Shown here in pieces: positions 1 through 5,509 of a stretch of DNA of 5,509 nt. The DNA comes from Deltaproteobacteria bacterium (GTDB taxonomy: Bacteria > Desulfobacterota_E > Deferrimicrobia > Deferrimicrobiales > Deferrimicrobiaceae): assembly GCA_023489025.1 (NCBI GenBank), contig JAMDCN010000084.1, forward strand, positions 1 through 5,509, written 5' to 3'. The notes under the pieces were generated by a model, which saw nothing but the letters and a program-made list of their open reading frames with translations, searched no databases and was not told the DNA's origin. Position 1 is the first letter of the stretch, and each line of letters opens with the position of its first letter. A program made the position numbers and the translations under genes.

Positions 1-142
1 GCCAGGTGTTTTCGAAGACACAATCCTTCGTCATGGCCGCCATCACCGCGTCGACATCGTGCCGGTTGAAGGCCTCGTTGAAGCGATGTACCGCCGCAAT
101 CGTCGATTTCGTCAGTGCATCCGCCCGCGGGTCGCCTGGCAT
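1..142 (-). CDS. NTF2/SnoaL-like protein, N-terminal part, cut by window edge
   Basis: An open frame starting at ATG 142 runs off the left edge, giving 47 residues. The visible part contains AAVHRFNEAFNRHDVDAVMA followed by a segment ending DCVFENTW. This is the amphipathic first helix and following acidic strand seen at the start of SnoaL-like/ketosteroid-isomerase-like proteins of the NTF2 superfamily. Those are small cone-shaped alpha+beta folds that bind hydrophobic ligands or act as isomerases, hydrolases or stress proteins. A purine-rich ribosome binding site (AGGGAAGGGG) lies just before the ATG. The ATG begins 10 bases after the stop of the DUF3617-like gene, so it is probably the last visible member of the same transcript. 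The substrate cannot be inferred, because the pocket residues lie outside the window. The fold call is fairly secure; the function is open. Confidence 0.75.
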   Translation of the reverse strand, partial: MPGDPRADALTKSTIAAVHRFNEAFNRHDVDAVMAAMTKDCVFENTW

Positions 143-152
143 GGCCCCTTCC

Positions 153-620
153 CTACTTTTTACAATCGCCGATGCGTTGCGCGACGAGCAGCTCCTTCGT
201 CGCCTGCCCATCGGCCGACCCGTTGATCTCGACCCTGTATGCGCTGTCGCTCTCCACGGTTATAACGGTCGTCGAGCGGCTGCTTGTCACGGCTCCCGAA
301 GGACCCTGGATCGAGCAGTCCGCGGTGAACGTGTAGGTATTGCCGGACTTCTTGGCGGGAGAGAACCGGCACCCGACTTTTTTGAGCATCGCATTTTGCT
401 TCTTCATGTCTTCCGTCGGGCTGGAGCACTTCGTCATCTCGATCGTCTTCGTGCCGACCGTGCGCTGGAATTTCCACATCCCCTGCCGGAACACCGGCAT
501 CTCGTCGGCATGGGCGGGGCTGCAGACCGCCATGGACCCGAAAACGGCCAGAAAAATCATGACGACCCTCGTCCCGCGGTTCCGGGGCGAACGGTTGCAT
601 GTGCTATTCATCCATTTCAT
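153..620 (-). CDS. secreted DUF3617-like protein
   Basis: The product has 155 residues. Residues 19-38 form a hydrophobic signal segment ending in SPAHA, with likely cleavage before DEMP. The mature part begins with FRQGMWKFQRT, matching the 'G.W' opening of DUF3617 proteins. It carries four cysteines (65, 84, 102, 153) spaced as in that family, the last in a terminal GDCKK, so two disulfides in the periplasm are likely. DUF3617 has no established function. I chose ATG 620, which follows the stop of the zinc-ribbon gene by four bases, with GAGGA 14 bases upstream inside that gene. ATG 611, three codons later, is an equally reasonable start. Longer upstream starts would overlap the preceding gene and bury the signal peptide. 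It sits inside a four-gene run of small envelope-type proteins. Confidence 0.8.
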   Translation of the reverse strand: MKWMNSTCNRSPRNRGTRVVMIFLAVFGSMAVCSPAHADEMPVFRQGMWKFQRTVGTKTIEMTKCSSPTEDMKKQNAMLKKVGCRFSPAKKSGNTYTFTADCSIQGPSGAVTSSRSTTVITVESDSAYRVEINGSADGQATKELLVAQRIGDCKK

Positions 621-624
621 CTGT

Positions 625-918
625 TTATAATGAATCCTCATCGAACTTGATTCCGCAACGAGGGCAATGGCCAAGTGTTTCCTCGGCAAATACGAATTTA
701 AGCCCCAAGATCGCCTTGCACTTGGGACATTTAATTCCAAAGTACACCAATAAAACGCCAACCACGAATACCGTTATGGCGCCAAGCGATAGTGTCTCGT
801 ACAAGGATCGCGGGAAATATTTGTCGAAGAATGCGACGATTGCCATGACGAAAAAGCTTATTCCCACGATCAGCAAGTAAATCTTTTTTCTTCGATTCAG
901 TACCTCTCTCGGTCTCAT
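625..918 (-). CDS. small membrane protein with C-terminal zinc ribbon
   Basis: The product has 97 residues. A basic N-terminus (MRPREVLNRRKK) precedes two hydrophobic segments, about residues 12-31 and 43-62. A soluble tail follows with paired CPKC (64-67) and CPRC (85-88) motifs, a typical zinc-ribbon knuckle pair 17 residues apart. The positive-inside pattern places both ends, including the ribbon, in the cytoplasm. The ATG overlaps the stop of the preceding gene by four bases (ATGA, 918-915), indicating translational coupling. Its base composition is more AT-rich than the flanking secreted-protein genes. I do not recognise a named family. The ribbon could bind protein or nucleic acid, but nothing here shows which. 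Confidence 0.8.
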   Translation of the reverse strand: MRPREVLNRRKKIYLLIVGISFFVMAIVAFFDKYFPRSLYETLSLGAITVFVVGVLLVYFGIKCPKCKAILGLKFVFAEETLGHCPRCGIKFDEDSL

Positions 919-1226
919 CGCACGGTGATACGGAAGACGCGGCGCTGTCCGAAGGTGGTGGCCGCCGAGCAGAGCGTCGTCCCGGGGCCGACGCCCTGGA
1001 ACCCCAACCCGTCCGGCGTGTCGACAGGCACGGCAACCTTCGGATCGTCGCAGATGGGGCTGATCGCCGGACAGACGATCTGCCCGGACTTACAGACCTT
1101 GAAGATTTCTCCGGCCGACAGTTCGACCGGATAAGGCTCGTCGCGCAACCGTTCCGCGTCCTGCGCATGGCTCGCGGATACGGTGAGCAAAAGCAACCCG
1201 ACCACTACGGCAATCGTCGTCCTCAT
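915..1226 (-). CDS. secreted four-cysteine protein of unknown function
   Basis: The product has 103 residues with a classical signal peptide (MRTTIAVVVGLLLLTVSASHA, likely cleaved before QDAE). The mature domain is about 82 residues with cysteines at 45, 52, 59 and 86. The first three are evenly spaced by six residues. It has strand-like segments and ends in RRVFRITVR. The pattern suggests a small disulfide-stabilised periplasmic or extracellular protein; I do not recognise the family. I chose ATG 1226 because GGGGTGAT lies directly upstream and the signal peptide then begins at once. ATG 1250 in the same frame would add eight residues and place the ribosome binding site inside the gene. The stop overlaps the start of the zinc-ribbon membrane gene (ATGA), so the two are co-translated. 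Confidence 0.8.
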   Translation of the reverse strand: MRTTIAVVVGLLLLTVSASHAQDAERLRDEPYPVELSAGEIFKVCKSGQIVCPAISPICDDPKVAVPVDTPDGLGFQGVGPGTTLCSAATTFGQRRVFRITVR

Positions 1227-1292
1227 GCAATCACCCCAAAAAGCATGCAAGCCCGTGACAAGTCAGATGCAAGCCGTTGCCAGACCGCTTCC

Positions 1293-1679
1293 TTATCTCC
1301 TCCGAAGATGAAAATTCTCAAGCACTATGCCAAAACCCGTTGTGATGGTCGGTATCATCACATATGTAAGTCCAATATCTGCAGCATAATCCTTCAAATT
1401 CATCTTCATCGGACCGTACGAAAAGAACGGTAGGTCAATTAAAATACTCATGGCAAACCAAAGTAAACCAATGAAAATGCCCTCTTTTAAGTAATTATCT
1501 TCAATATGTTTGAAATATATTGAAGCACTTATAACAACAATTACCGACAATACAAGTGCCATAATTGACTCAAATAATGCTCGCCATAATTCTCGAACCG
1601 GATAGGAAATTAACCCAATGACAAATGGTACAATCCACACTAAAAACCCCAATAATAAAGCTCTTCTCCTGGATGTCAT
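1293..1679 (-). CDS. four-helix integral membrane protein, conserved hypothetical
   Basis: The product has 128 residues with four hydrophobic segments at about 7-25, 37-56, 66-84 and 101-120, and basic ends (MTSRRR, HLRRR). The stretches EGIFIGLLWFAMSILIDLPF and GPMKMNLKDYAADIGLTY resemble a widespread uncharacterised small membrane family, from memory; I know no assigned function. AGAGGATAGG precedes the ATG, so the start is well supported. The gene begins 22 bases after the R' box of the attC at 1701-1776, the short leader expected of an integron cassette gene. It is clearly the most AT-rich gene in the window, unlike the GC-rich ftsZ end, which fits independent origin. No attC follows its stop codon, so the downstream border of its cassette is not seen. 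Confidence 0.85.
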   Translation of the reverse strand: MTSRRRALLLGFLVWIVPFVIGLISYPVRELWRALFESIMALVLSVIVVISASIYFKHIEDNYLKEGIFIGLLWFAMSILIDLPFFSYGPMKMNLKDYAADIGLTYVMIPTITTGFGIVLENFHLRRR

Positions 1680-1700
1680 CCTATCCTCTATGCCATGTTC

Positions 1701-1776
1701 GGCTAACGCTCCGTTTAAGCTGCGGGTGCCGAGGATTTAACCCAGGCGAGCCGTCAGCTTCAACCTGTGGTTAGCC
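1701..1776 (-). other. integron attC recombination site (site 1, 76 bp)
   Basis: Read on the minus strand, R'' is GGCTAAC (1776-1770) and R' is GTTAGCC (1707-1701), exact complements. L'' is TTGAAGCTG (1763-1755) and L' is CAGCTTAA (1722-1715); these pair fully except for one extra G in L'' at 1761. That unpaired base is the orientation marker of attC sites and shows that the array reads leftwards. The site is as long as the one at 2932-3007 and identical at about 60 of 76 positions without gaps. The stop codon of the gene at 1771-2226 lies inside R''. The boxes depart slightly from the RYYYAAC/GTTRRRY consensus. Confidence 0.85.
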
Positions 1777-2226
1777 ACTGCTGGAAAATGGTTCTCCCTT
1801 AATTCTTGGAACAACTTGAACCCTCAGCATGACTTCTCCATAACCGTAACACTCGACACCAGCATCCAGGCATCTCACGTACCGCATGAAATGAAAATCG
1901 TTCGGCTCTAGTCCTTCACTAAGCCGTTCGTTGATCAGCGCCACGGGGACTGCCAACTGAGAAATCAAATAGACGCACATCTTCTTCGGGCAGAATTTCG
2001 AGATGAAGTTGCCATCCACATCGAGAACAAATTTTTCCCCGACCGCATGGCCCGAATTGCAGTGCTTAACCTGGACGACCTCCGCCTGTATGGAATAGCG
2101 TGATGCCGCCCGGGAAAGCCGATTGACCTGCCTGACTCTGTGGCCCCCCTCATGAAACTTCTCAATCTCAGACTCCGTGTACCCAACTCTTTCTCCGTAT
2201 TTTTTTATTATTTTTTCATCTGCCAT
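1771..2226 (-). CDS. TIGR04076-like protein
   Basis: The product has 151 residues. An N-terminal charged helical region (about 1-45: DEKIIKKYGERVGY) precedes a compact domain. That domain begins AEVVQVKHCNSGHAVGEKF, continues with a conserved CPKKMCVYLI segment, and ends with an RCLDAGVECYGYGEVMLRV strand region. The 'V.v...C..GH.vG..f' opening and later paired cysteines resemble TIGR04076 proteins, whose function is unknown; the match is from memory. Cysteines 56, 79, 84, 119 and 126 with His60 could bind metal, but this is speculation. ATG 2226 was chosen because AAGGGGG lies five bases upstream; an in-frame GTG at 2232 overlaps that site. The TAA stop is embedded in the R'' box of the downstream attC, so gene and recombination site share bases. 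Confidence 0.8.
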   Translation of the reverse strand: MADEKIIKKYGERVGYTESEIEKFHEGGHRVRQVNRLSRAASRYSIQAEVVQVKHCNSGHAVGEKFVLDVDGNFISKFCPKKMCVYLISQLAVPVALINERLSEGLEPNDFHFMRYVRCLDAGVECYGYGEVMLRVQVVPRIKGEPFSSSG

Positions 2227-2326
2227 CTGCACCCCCTTGAAACATGTGGATATCGTTGCGTCTCCGAGGCACCGCCCTAACGGGGCGTCATTTGGGAGCG
2301 CCTATTGGACGGATAGATCATCCTCA

Positions 2327-2743
2327 TCATGTCTCAACCTTTGAGTACGTGAGGACGTGGTGGGCCACCAAACCGGAGGCGGCGCCATGACATTCGGCGG
2401 TACCGTACATACTGCGTTTCCCGGGCTTCAGGACACGAGCCGTGCACAAGATATCTTCCTCTCGCGCGCCGCGCAGAAATGCCGTCTTCATGTCCGACGT
2501 CACCCAACGCTCAGCGGTCCCCCGCAGCGTCATGATCGCCAGCCACATTGCCACGTCTGCGGCCCCCATAAGCATCATGCCGCTGACGAGGCCCCCCGGG
2601 CGCTCGAGAGAATGCATGAACGGAACAAGCACCGTGCATTCGCCTGGAGCACATGCTTTCACGGTGAATCCATATGGCTTGAGAAATGGTGTGGCCGCCA
2701 AGATGCCATTCAACTCTTCAATAGATGCGGCTGGAGTTTTCAT
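2327..2743 (-). CDS. PaaI-type hotdog-fold thioesterase
   Basis: The product has 138 residues, the usual length of a single hotdog domain. The segment LERPGGLVSGMMLMGAADVA (46-65) corresponds to the central helix of PaaI-family acyl-CoA thioesterases. Asp63 falls at the usual catalytic acidic position. 'RPGG' replaces the classic HGG, as in a subgroup I recall with RPGG-x-SGP. Later strands (WVTSDMKTAFLRG, DILCTARVLKPGKRSMYGTA) fit the hotdog sheet. It would hydrolyse a small acyl-CoA or aryl-CoA in the cytoplasm; the substrate is unknown. It is the main gene of cassette 2. GGGAGG lies 15 bases before the ATG, which is rather far. A short upstream frame ends at the start codon (ATGA overlap), so translation may be coupled. 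Confidence 0.85.
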   Translation of the reverse strand: MKTPAASIEELNGILAATPFLKPYGFTVKACAPGECTVLVPFMHSLERPGGLVSGMMLMGAADVAMWLAIMTLRGTAERWVTSDMKTAFLRGAREEDILCTARVLKPGKRSMYGTAECHGAASGLVAHHVLTYSKVET

Positions 2744-2871
2744 AGACCGTCCGGCTCGCCTCCCTTCCCGGGTTGCACCTTTTCAGCCCCCACCCAAATG
2801 TGTTCTTTAAGACGGCGGTTTTCCCGATTCGACGCAATACATAATATCGCGTTTATCGGGGAAGTCTCCAC
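2740..2871 (-). CDS. possible small coupled ORF upstream of the thioesterase gene
   Basis: An open frame of 43 codons begins at GTG 2871 and stops at TGA 2742-2740, overlapping the thioesterase ATG as ATGA. The same frame stays open back to 2910, but no ATG is present in it. The product would begin VETSPINAILCIASNRENRR and end PGKGGEPDGL, a mixed and protein-like composition. No convincing ribosome binding site precedes the GTG. It occupies most of the otherwise unexplained leader of cassette 2. It could be a coupled leader peptide, the remnant of an older cassette gene, or chance. I recognise no homologue. Confidence 0.22.
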   Translation of the reverse strand: METSPINAILCIASNRENRRLKEHIWVGAEKVQPGKGGEPDGL

Positions 2872-2931
2872 GTCTGCATAGCTGAATAATTGCCTGTTAA
2901 GTTCGATTCTTCATCCATAAGCCCTACATGT

Positions 2932-3007
2932 GGCTAACGCTCCGGCTAAGCTGCGGGCGCTCACGTATTACGGCAGGCGAGCCGTCAGCTTCAAACGGTT
3001 GTTGGGC
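2932..3007 (-). other. integron attC recombination site (site 2, 76 bp)
   Basis: On the minus strand, R'' is GCCCAAC (3007-3001), a perfect RYYYAAC, and R' is GTTAGCC (2938-2932). L'' TTGAAGCTG (2994-2986) pairs with L' CAGCTTA (2953-2947), leaving one extra G at 2992. This is the same asymmetric unpaired base as in the site at 1701-1776, so both point leftwards. The outer arms are nearly constant between the two sites; the 14-base centre (2961-2974 in this copy) is the least conserved part, as expected for the variable region of attC. R'' starts three bases after the stop of the NTF2-like gene, typical of cassette architecture. Confidence 0.88.
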
Positions 3008-3462
3008 GGCTTACATCGGATTCGGTGAAAAATGATCCGCAACAGCCCACCAACGGTTGCTTTCCATAACAAACACATACATATCGCGCCCGCCAAAGTC
3101 TATTTTTTGCCCGCCTCTTTCAAATGAGATTTCAAAATAATATGTCACGACGGCTGTATTTCCATAAATTTGAATCTTGGGGTCTATTTCCTCCCAATTA
3201 TGAATCTTTGCCGTCTTCGAAAATTCAGTCCAGTCCGCCACGCATGCCTCACGACCTTCCCGTCGTTTTTTATCGGTTGGCGTTATGGCAACCATATCCG
3301 CATGAAAATAATTCTTCAAATCATCCGGATTTCCTTTTATCCACGTATTATTCAAATCTTTTAATGTCTTCCAAACCTCATTCTTGGCCTTATCCTGAAA
3401 GTCAACCATCGTGATCCGCTCCTTTCTCAAATGGCCAATTGAATTCGTTGATGTCTGCCCAA
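2938..3462 (-). mobile_element. integron gene cassette 1 (525 bp)
   Basis: The cassette opens with TTGGGC (3462-3457) and closes with an attC whose R'' is GCCCAAC (3007-3001), an exact complement, so the two ends belong together. It holds a single gene of 132 codons reading leftwards, a leader of about 50 bases and one attC: a textbook cassette in size and layout. It directly adjoins the GC-rich radical SAM gene, and base composition falls sharply across the border. Its expression probably depends on an outside promoter, since no clear -35/-10 pair is seen in the leader. Confidence 0.82.
3011..3409 (-). CDS. SnoaL/DUF4440-like protein of the NTF2 superfamily
   Basis: The product has 132 residues. 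It begins with an N-terminal helix EVWKTLKDLNNTWIKGNPDD, then LKNYFHADMVAITPTDKKRREG (about 31-52). Strands follow (IQIYGNTAVVTYYFEISFER, GGRDMYVFVMESNRWWAVAD), with a short tail FSPNPM. This is the complete helix-then-curved-sheet pattern of SnoaL-like/DUF4440 proteins, at normal length. Members are ketosteroid-isomerase-like enzymes or ligand-binding proteins of the cytoplasm; no specific reaction can be assigned. ATG 3409 was chosen because AAAGGAG (3425-3419) lies nine bases upstream. An in-frame ATG at 3430 would bury that site. It is the only gene of cassette 1. A second, unrelated-looking NTF2-like gene starts at the left end of the window. Confidence 0.85.
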   Translation of the reverse strand: MVDFQDKAKNEVWKTLKDLNNTWIKGNPDDLKNYFHADMVAITPTDKKRREGREACVADWTEFSKTAKIHNWEEIDPKIQIYGNTAVVTYYFEISFERGGQKIDFGGRDMYVFVMESNRWWAVADHFSPNPM

Positions 3463-3475
3463 CTAAAATTAGGCG
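3457..3475 (-). other. cassette entry point: attI-like or secondary integration site
   Basis: On the minus strand, CGCCTAA (3475-3469) is followed by TTTTA and then GTTGGGC (3463-3457). This is the L-spacer-R layout of a simple integron site, similar to the end of attI1 (GCCCTAA...GTTAGGC, recalled). The TTGGGC part belongs to cassette 1, so only the G and the L-like box belong to the host side. No matching R''/L'' half lies upstream, where the radical SAM gene ends 21 bases away, so it is not a complete attC. It may be a displaced attI, half of a decayed attC, or a chance secondary target of an integrase. Confidence 0.55.
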
Positions 3476-3484
3476 GCAAGGCGG

Positions 3485-5185
3485 TCACCCGCGCAGGATT
3501 GCCTCGTAACGCTTGCGGAGGACGGCTCTCGGAAGCCCGCCTTCGATGACGTCCCAGGGGAAATATTCGTCCCCCCTTTTTTCTCGGTAGACGATCTCGG
3601 AGAGGGGAACGGCGAGGTTTTCTGGAGAGAGTTTGAGCCTCCCCTTGCGGGCGTGACGCAACGCTTGCTCCACACGTCGGTCCGACAAACCGAGGAATCC
3701 TTGTAATATGGCTGTCTGCGGGGCTTCGGGGTCGATGCGCAGATTGGGAATCGACCGCACGACGGCGGCGATCTTCTCCTGGCGCAGCTTGAGTTCGGCC
3801 TCGGATGTCATCGGCGCCCACTGCAGCGGAGTAAAGGGTTTCGGAACGAAGGGAGAGAGCACCACGGTCACAGTTCCCATTCGTCCAATCGCCTTGCATT
3901 CCTCGAGCATCGCCACCCGAAACTTTCTCAGGAAACCGACGGCACCCTCGACCTCCTCGTCGCGCTCCGCGCCTGGGACCCCCACCAGGAAGTAGAGCTT
4001 GAACGAGACGATCCCCGCGCGGGCCAAGGTTGTTCCCGCGGAGAAAAAGACCCGGTCCGGCACCCGCTTGCCGATCCGCGCGCGCAGCCGCTGGCTCCCG
4101 CACTCGGGAGCCAGCGACACCGTGCGGTGCCCGCTGTGCCTCAGGATGTCCGCGATCTCCTCGTCCACCAGGTCCGCCCGGACCGAGGCGGGGGAAACCG
4201 CCCCCCCGCGGGCGAGAACTTCCTTTGAAAACACCCGGAAATGGCTCCAGTCGAGCACCGCGGCGCCGATCAGCCCGATCCTGCGGCGATGGGGCCAGGC
4301 GGCGTCGACGACCGCGCGCACGAAAGGAAGGGGCATTTCGCGGAACTCCGGGCAGGCGTGCGCCGCGGCGCAGAACCCGCACATCTTGGGGCAGCCCCGG
4401 GAAGTCTCTACCAGGGCCATCCTCCCCAGTTCTGCGTCTTCGGCCAGGACGGTGGGGAGCGGAGGATAATCGGAGAGAGATACTGTCTCCCGCGCGACGC
4501 ACCCGGGGAAGCCGGGAAGGTGGATCAAGGCTCGCAGCCTTCCTTCCTTCCCGGGATCCCCGCCGACGGGTTCGATGGTTTCGGGAACATAACCGGCCGG
4601 AACGTACACTCCGGGAATGGCGGCAAGGCTTTTCAGGTATCCCTTGTCCGCGGGATGAGGATCTCCCAGGTCGAGAACCGCCTCTACCGCTCTTTCCCCG
4701 TCGCCCACCACGACGGCATCGGCGAAAACCCCGGCGGGCTCGGGGTTGAGGGATGCGGCGAACCCTCCTGCGAGGACCATCGGCCGGGGGCCGCCGGCTT
4801 CCTCCCGGTCCTTGCGAAACGGCAGGACACCCCCTGCTGCAAGGATCGATGGGATATTCAGCAGGTCGTTCTCATACGACAGGGAAAAGGCGACGATGTC
4901 GAAATCCTTGAGGGGGCCGCCGCTCTCCAGCGTCGATAGGGGAAGCGGCCGGCGGGCTGAGATCCGCTCCTCCGCCGCAGACGGCAAAAAGGCCCGCTCG
5001 CACAGGGCGTCGGGCCTTTCGTTGATGCGCGCGTGGATGGAGAGGAAGCCCAAGTTCGACATCCCCGCCGCGTACCGGTTCGGGTAGACCAGCGCGATCC
5101 GGAGCCGGCCGCCCCACTCCTTCCTCTTGGCGCCGACCTCCCGGGACAGTATGGCGTCGTGGAGTTTTCGGATCTCCCACGCCAT
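3485..5185 (-). CDS. radical SAM protein with N-terminal B12-binding-like domain
   Basis: The product has 566 residues. Residues about 28-175 form a Rossmann-like cobalamin-binding-type domain (LRIALVYPNRYAAGMSNLGF, VLAGGFAASLNPEP, then ADAVVVGDGERAV). Residues about 255-480 form the radical SAM barrel. Its cluster motif is ETSRGCPKMCGFC, with Cys265, Cys269 and Cys272 as CxxxCxxC ligands of the 4Fe-4S cluster that cleaves S-adenosylmethionine. A C-terminal region (about 480-566) contains SPFVPKPFTPLQW-type and terminal helical elements known from this family. Its DxHxxG cobalamin motif appears absent: the aligned loop reads NRYAAGMSNLG. It follows ftsZ by 27 bases and probably shares its transcript. 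The reaction is unknown. The ribosome binding site is weak (GGGGCTAGG), but no better start is in frame upstream. Confidence 0.9.
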   Translation of the reverse strand: MAWEIRKLHDAILSREVGAKRKEWGGRLRIALVYPNRYAAGMSNLGFLSIHARINERPDALCERAFLPSAAEERISARRPLPLSTLESGGPLKDFDIVAFSLSYENDLLNIPSILAAGGVLPFRKDREEAGGPRPMVLAGGFAASLNPEPAGVFADAVVVGDGERAVEAVLDLGDPHPADKGYLKSLAAIPGVYVPAGYVPETIEPVGGDPGKEGRLRALIHLPGFPGCVARETVSLSDYPPLPTVLAEDAELGRMALVETSRGCPKMCGFCAAAHACPEFREMPLPFVRAVVDAAWPHRRRIGLIGAAVLDWSHFRVFSKEVLARGGAVSPASVRADLVDEEIADILRHSGHRTVSLAPECGSQRLRARIGKRVPDRVFFSAGTTLARAGIVSFKLYFLVGVPGAERDEEVEGAVGFLRKFRVAMLEECKAIGRMGTVTVVLSPFVPKPFTPLQWAPMTSEAELKLRQEKIAAVVRSIPNLRIDPEAPQTAILQGFLGLSDRRVEQALRHARKGRLKLSPENLAVPLSEIVYREKRGDEYFPWDVIEGGLPRAVLRKRYEAILRG

Positions 5186-5212: not shown

Positions 5213-5509
5213 TTACTCTCCGCGCCTGCGCAGGAACGTCGGGATCTCGAATTCCTCGAGGGCCTCCGCTTCGCTCTCCTTGTCGATGACGGGAAGGTCC
5301 TCGATCCGCTCCGGCGGTTTCTGCGGCCCGGCCCGGAGGAACGTCGGCTTTTCCAGGTCCTCCTTCCCCACCAGCTTGATCGGGCGGCGCGGGCCCTTCC
5401 ACAAGTTCTCCGCCACCCCCGCTTCGAACCCGGTCGCGATGACCGTCACCTTCAGCTCCTCGCCCACGCTTTCGTCGATCACGGTCCCGAAGATGATGTT
5501 CGCCTCGTC
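5213..5509 (-). CDS. ftsZ: cell division protein FtsZ, C-terminal part, cut by window edge
   Basis: The last 98 codons are present; the 5' part, with the GTP-binding domain, lies beyond the right edge. The fragment begins DEANIIFGTVIDESVGEELK and VTVIATGF, the end of the tubulin-like C-terminal subdomain. A short charged and proline-rich linker follows, then EEFEIPTFLRRRGE, the conserved tail peptide that docks FtsZ to FtsA and other membrane anchors. FtsZ is the cytoplasmic GTPase that polymerises into the division ring. The linker contains a second PTFLR (positions 5347-5333) resembling the terminal one (5242-5228). The stop is 27 bases before the radical SAM gene, with no terminator hairpin between them. 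Confidence 0.97.
   Translation of the reverse strand, partial: DEANIIFGTVIDESVGEELKVTVIATGFEAGVAENLWKGPRRPIKLVGKEDLEKPTFLRAGPQKPPERIEDLPVIDKESEAEALEEFEIPTFLRRRGE

Follow-up and report, generated by a model that had tools for sequence, protein, structure and literature searches.

A cassette array with an attI-like core and no integrase gene behind ftsZ and a radical SAM gene, probably the remainder of a sedentary chromosomal integron

The row of small genes that follows ftsZ and a radical SAM gene in a 5,509-nucleotide stretch of DNA (the window, that is, the whole stretch analysed) is, with a probability of roughly 0.88, a sedentary chromosomal integron of the radical SAM-yjbQ junction that has lost its integrase gene and has kept an attI core, two attC sites and two cassettes. 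A CALIN comprises two or more attC sites with no intI in the vicinity; the 5509 bp hold two attC sites and no intI, and the array would formally be a CALIN, one with an attI-like core still in place. The preliminary description of this DNA had offered a sedentary array or a CALIN as alternatives: the comparison with relatives favours the first, in the form of a sedentary integron without intI, and the second is left as the formal class. The span that it gave, 1701-3463, agrees with the two cassettes; the description did not name the attI-like core (3457-3476), which precedes cassette 1 and places the array start at 3463. The features are as follows.

5213..5509, minus: 3' end of ftsZ, upstream host gene (Pfam FtsZ_C, E 5.8e-7)
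3485..5185, minus: radical SAM gene, right flank of the integron (Pfam Radical_SAM_N2 and Radical_SAM; 90% identical to the G009 orthologue)
3457..3476, minus: attI-like core at the array start, CCGCCTAATTTTA/GTTGGGC, 8 bp past the radical SAM stop
2938..3462, minus: cassette 1, 525 bp, starting G/TTGGGC and closed by R'' GCCCAAC
3011..3430, minus: cassette 1 gene, SnoaL/DUF4440-like, 139 aa from TTG (Pfam DUF4440, E 2.1e-15)
2932..3007, minus: attC site 2, closing cassette 1 (model R1, 78.6 bits)
1707..2937, minus: cassette 2, 1231 bp, two genes, starting G/TTAGCC and closed by R'' GGCTAAC
2327..2743, minus: first gene of cassette 2, hotdog-fold thioesterase, 138 aa (Pfam 4HBT, E 6.9e-10)
1771..2232, minus: second gene of cassette 2, 153 aa, without a Pfam family, many homologues
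1701..1776, minus: attC site 1, closing cassette 2, last attC of the window (model R1, 78.5 bits)
1293..1679, minus: 128-aa gene that comes next after the last attC; GC 0.36, without a Pfam family
915..1250, minus: gene of a 111-aa protein, no family, with a 43% relative in G001
625..918, minus: gene of a 97-aa protein, without attC here; in G003 and G004, its relatives form bounded cassettes
153..587, minus: DUF3617 gene, common to G009 (Pfam DUF3617, E 1.4e-8)
2..211, minus: SnoaL-like gene cut by the window end; adjoins yjbQ in G009

attC sites and cassettes

The radical SAM gene and the row of small genes behind it all lie on the minus strand. Most of what the preliminary description had seen in the letters held on measurement. 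Both sites are 76 bp long, have the same leftward orientation and are identical at 60/76 positions, as it had estimated (a repeat search gave 81% over 72 nt); the R'', L'', L' and R' boxes, the L''-L' pairing and the single unpaired base, which is the A of GCTG-A-CGG on the gene strand, occur in both sites and in the consensus of 35 sites from relatives. The sites had also been said to follow stop codons directly, and the stop of ORF 1771-2232 lies inside the R'' box of site 1, with that of ORF 3011-3430 standing 3 bp before the R'' box of site 2. The differences in composition are likewise real, with GC fractions of 0.42 (ORF 3011-3430), 0.59 (2327-2743), 0.49 (1771-2232) and 0.36 (1293-1679) against 0.66 for the radical SAM gene and 0.65 for ftsZ. 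No attC follows the gene at 2327-2743.

The check by covariance model that had been proposed was carried out with a model of our own, R1, built from relatives' sites with the window sites left out; 35 of the 41 listed sites were used for training, the other six being degenerate or backward readings of a site. R1 matched both window sites with E about 2e-20, a score that by itself is partly circular and not independent evidence, because motifs seen in the window guided the choice of the training sites. On the opposite strand the same two sites scored 15.6 and 8.5 bits. With the filters off, nothing else in the whole window exceeded 7.7 bits besides the two sites and their backward readings, and no further attC above 5.1 bits was found in positions 1-1700. 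An Rfam scan of the window returned six matches up to E 10, none of them at its gathering score and none to an attC family.

In the training alignment, 88.3% of the cells pair, against 20.6-42.6% in slid controls, and both the percentage paired and the covariation score lie above column shuffles (1 and 10 of 500 were as high); two of the five pairing measures do not, namely the pairs changed on both sides (382 of 500 shuffles as high) and the further pair types (449 of 500). Single-strand folding, the other check proposed, bore out site 1, which as 79-nt DNA beats its shuffles on both strands (z -3.0 and -2.6; 2/200 shuffles each), and did not clearly do so for site 2 (z -1.2 on the plus strand, 26/200 shuffles; z -0.3 on the minus strand, 76/200). 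Folded as 75-nt minus strands, the sites gave z values of -1.9 and -0.8.

The boundaries of the cassettes provide a further signature. In a circular cassette, its own first bases complete its attC, so that they are expected to be complementary to the R'' box of the closing attC. In the window, the seven-base start is the reverse complement of the closing R'' at both of the two testable boundaries; among the relatives, the seven bases match in 35 of 52 neighbouring site pairs, against 5.8 expected from box shuffles, a count that none of 2000 shuffles reached (the remaining 17 pairs mismatch). This pair count leaves out the weak hits L149:5120, L149:7902 and L135:2802 and two half sites of L001. 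Together with the attC family that adjoins integrases in relatives, the boundary signature bears out the earlier reading of this DNA as an integron cassette array, and we regard the identity of the two 76-bp sites as attC sites as confirmed.

The possibility that the sites are an ordinary intergenic repeat with no link to integrons had been named beforehand as what would overturn that reading, and it has next to nothing left in its favour. An 18-base arm of the site (up to 2 mismatches) is indeed present in 19 of the 24 relatives and in a few places lacks the second half (L001); however, R1 matches both window sites, the R boxes are conserved, the boundary signature lies far above shuffles, and same-strand rows of sites adjoin intI, as in G004:C8, where 14 of the genome's 18 arm matches lie at 8.8-28.3 kb and intI at 6.9 kb. 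The arm occurs 0 to 18 times per genome and at 70 places in the 24 related genomes, some of them half sites, compared with 2 places for a reversed-pattern control.

The gene of cassette 1 has an ATG 7 codons past its TTG start. In cassette 2, some homologues of the 153-aa protein are named TIGR04076 by a source, and a 77% relative in G003 ends 98 bp before the contig end. Judged by its boxes, cassette 2 would have moved as one unit, and its two genes suggest a fused cassette. A search for a broken attC between them, in 2233-2326, yielded a GTTAGGG box with no partner box by eye and no model match; the fusion is therefore offered as an inference.

The attI-like core and the radical SAM-yjbQ junction

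The pattern of the window core, drawn up like the similar pattern below after the sites were known, occurs once in the window, with 0.01 expected. A similar pattern occurs 6 times in 332,534 strand-bases from 17 relatives' loci, and five of these six are attI cores; it missed the attI cores of G003:C45 and G010:C4, whose last bases do not fit RRRY. When the box was predicted from the first attC of each locus, it was found between intI (or its remnant) and the attC in 10 of 11 relatives' loci; G010:C45 had none, and G018 had a second match in addition. CTAAT precedes the box in the 10 loci, with CCAAT in G003. The spacer to GTT comprises four bases in the seven loci whose intI is co-directional to the cassettes (L133, L138, L142, L145, L146, L028 and L001) and five bases in the three whose intI reads away (G002, G017 and G018; L029, L144 and L147). 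G009, G012 and G013 carry a four-base core behind intI (CTAAT or CTAAA), and their contigs end before any attC. The window core has the four-base form and agrees with the cores that adjoin intI in relatives. By its sequence, a putative attI thus stands at the start of the array, which is one of the marks of a sedentary chromosomal integron.

It is important to consider where the same junction stands in other genomes. A search of the genome collection with the radical SAM protein gave four loci, three of them 78-81% identical, and the comparison set is the 24-genome family around the radical SAM loci, a set of relatives that does not include the source genome of the window. A near full-length orthologue is present in 20 of the 24 genomes, and an integron integrase above the curated cut-off in 10. 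In G009, G012 and G013 a full intI lies directly behind the radical SAM gene on the same strand, and G001 holds an intI remnant of 75 aa at this place. A gene that we take to be yjbQ lies on the same fetched stretch in 16 of the 20 genomes with an orthologue: in 13 of these 16 it is the immediate neighbour of the radical SAM gene (within 32 bp by alignment ends), and in G003, G014 and G022 a gap of 1.0-2.4 kb without intI separates the two, so that other insertions use the radical SAM-yjbQ junction too. These gap insertions start after 7698 in L003, after 2327 in L069 and after 1921 in L082. The remaining four of the 20 are G001, G009, G012 and G013, precisely those with intI or its remnant.

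From the radical SAM gene to yjbQ, G001 measures 6026 bp on one contig, and this eroded locus is the only one in which intI, attI, attC and yjbQ share a single contig. The contigs of G009, G012 and G013 break shortly after attI; the yjbQ of G009 is on a different contig, where its neighbours are relatives of the genes at the left end of the window (92%, 81% and 76% DNA identity; the 81% extends over 153-602, to G009:C47). We conclude that radical SAM and yjbQ probably enclose an integron island, to which the part of the window left of 3484 would belong. The location is stable in the window and four relatives, with yjbQ itself outside the window. The distance from the radical SAM stop to the attI core is about 1.3 kb in G009, including intI, and 8 bp in the window, where no match to IntI was found in 5,509 bp; the arrangement of intI next to attI that characterizes a sedentary chromosomal integron is thus absent from the window. 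Nor does the array resemble a mobile (class 1-like) integron, its flanks being ftsZ and the radical SAM gene, and no family of transposases or resistance proteins was identified among ten window ORFs scanned.

An integrase tree of 10 rows sets two divergent integrases apart from eight co-directional ones; 4 of its 7 inner branches are open, and so is the branching order among the eight. Fourteen sequences had been prepared for it and four were dropped: G013C18 (no frame by the motif filter), G003 and G017 (below 250 aa) and the G001 remnant.

Origin of the array and comparison with known systems

Under the favoured reading, the ancestor would have carried, between the radical SAM gene and a convergent yjbQ, an integron with intI co-directional to its cassettes. 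By the insertion and excision chemistry of IntI, the integrase would have taken up circular cassettes at attI, with excision or reordering at the folded single strands of attC. In the lineage of the window, a deletion between the radical SAM stop and attI would then have removed intI. What survived would be the attI core and two cassettes with their two attC sites, one cassette holding two genes, and behind them genes that lack attC. Such a deletion is probably the simplest account, and the four-base core and the four relatives suggest that the lost intI read with the cassettes.

Whether the array might still be served is a separate question. It may be a satellite integron, expressed by read-through from the ftsZ row and not from a promoter of its own, with attI and attC served in trans by a second integrase elsewhere in the genome (G013 has two integrases at two loci); we consider this rather unlikely. 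The terminator scans revealed no terminator-like site on the minus strand in 1600-3700 and none on the coding strand of the radical SAM-intI gap of G009, and the promoter scan found none between radical SAM and cassette 1 (promoter-like sites numbered 5 against 2.0 expected and 5 against 1.2 expected). Read-through from radical SAM into cassette 1 is permitted by these scans, and only permitted.

The lack of intI in the window would also be accounted for if an IntI from elsewhere had used a secondary site behind the radical SAM gene, so that a complete integron never stood here. According to the cited extract of PMC8618304, off-target insertion of this kind is one proposed origin of CALINs, and sources within the family exist, given its other integron loci and the two integrases of G013. 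An origin of this kind is nevertheless improbable in our view: the array begins with an attI-like core of the co-directional type, and a full or remnant intI occupies the same junction in four relatives. More improbable still is that the integron is complete in the organism and that intI was lost only from the assembly, through misassembly or a mixture of strains in a metagenome. The locus appears hard to assemble, as the contigs of three relatives break there, and the window is apparently a short contig; against this, the sequence at the join, 8 bp past the stop, is clean, with a continuous attI core and no notable repeat.

The proposed loss of intI from a resident integron has parallels, which we compare here as far as the cited portions of the papers go. 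Treponema phagedenis carries an intI-less chromosomal integron with attC sites and cassettes at the syntenic place, in a genus in which intI reads with the cassettes (PMC3607928). The window is similar in keeping attC and cassettes at a syntenic place with intI missing; it differs in phylum and locus and in keeping an attI-like core, none being reported for T. phagedenis in that portion. In Xanthomonas, integrons lie downstream of ilvD, and the inactivation of intI is widespread and repeated, with arrays that are more stable afterwards (PMC12444791, in the part cited). The window array resembles these integrons in having one conserved chromosomal home; taxon and locus differ, and here the whole intI is absent from beside attI. 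A CALIN is defined, in the cited text of PMC8618304, as a cluster of attC sites without an integron integrase, which the window resembles in its attC sites and cassettes without intI; unlike an off-target CALIN, its attI-like core and its relatives point to loss of intI. A covariance model for Deltaproteobacteria attC sites has been described, by which attC can be recognised by taxon from sequence and structure (PMC8352920, likewise in part). Among the best-ranked titles and abstracts of our literature search, there was no report of an integron behind ftsZ and a radical SAM gene.

The array represents a known type of element, seen at an informative point in its decay, and not a new mechanism. 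It adds a chromosomal home for integrons, the radical SAM-yjbQ junction behind ftsZ, in a little-studied group deposited as Deltaproteobacteria. It also takes its place in a graded series that runs from intact intI (G009, G012 and G013) through the absence of intI with attI and attC kept (the window) and an intI remnant with half-eroded attC (G001) to the empty junction of 13 relatives, a series that lets one ask how an array freezes after the loss of its integrase and if cassette genes then become fixed genes of the host.

Distal genes and other integron places in the family

The genes beyond the last attC may be former cassettes. Relatives of the 97-aa gene are flanked by an attC at either end, scoring 62.4 and 81.3 bits in G003 and 37.7 and 48.2 bits in G004, and the alignment of the window copy matches through the stop codon and diverges before the R'' box. 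In G001, the gene that directly follows the attI core encodes the 43% relative of the 111-aa protein; the fetched stretches contained no attC around closer relatives of this protein. In G001, the half sites L001:7783-7838 and 8536-8609 retain chiefly the R''-L'' half (31.0 and 24.8 bits), and this half-eroded attC pair sits in the genome with the integrase remnant. Next to the G009 relative of the 97-aa gene, frames at L165:10640-11713, judged by eye, resemble what we take to be an IS110-type transposase.

The family has a second integron place, where intI lies beside a gene that we presume to be larC-like, in G002, G005 and G013:C18 (L019, L138 and L136; probably L142 as well); in G010, only antisense frames of this gene were among those listed. 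A long array in G004 (L133 and L134; G004:C8:6000-30000) has 23 model matches on one strand behind an intact intI. In G009, the first genes behind attI (L067:4130-4717) resemble, by eye, a toxin-antitoxin pair of the MazE/MazF type.
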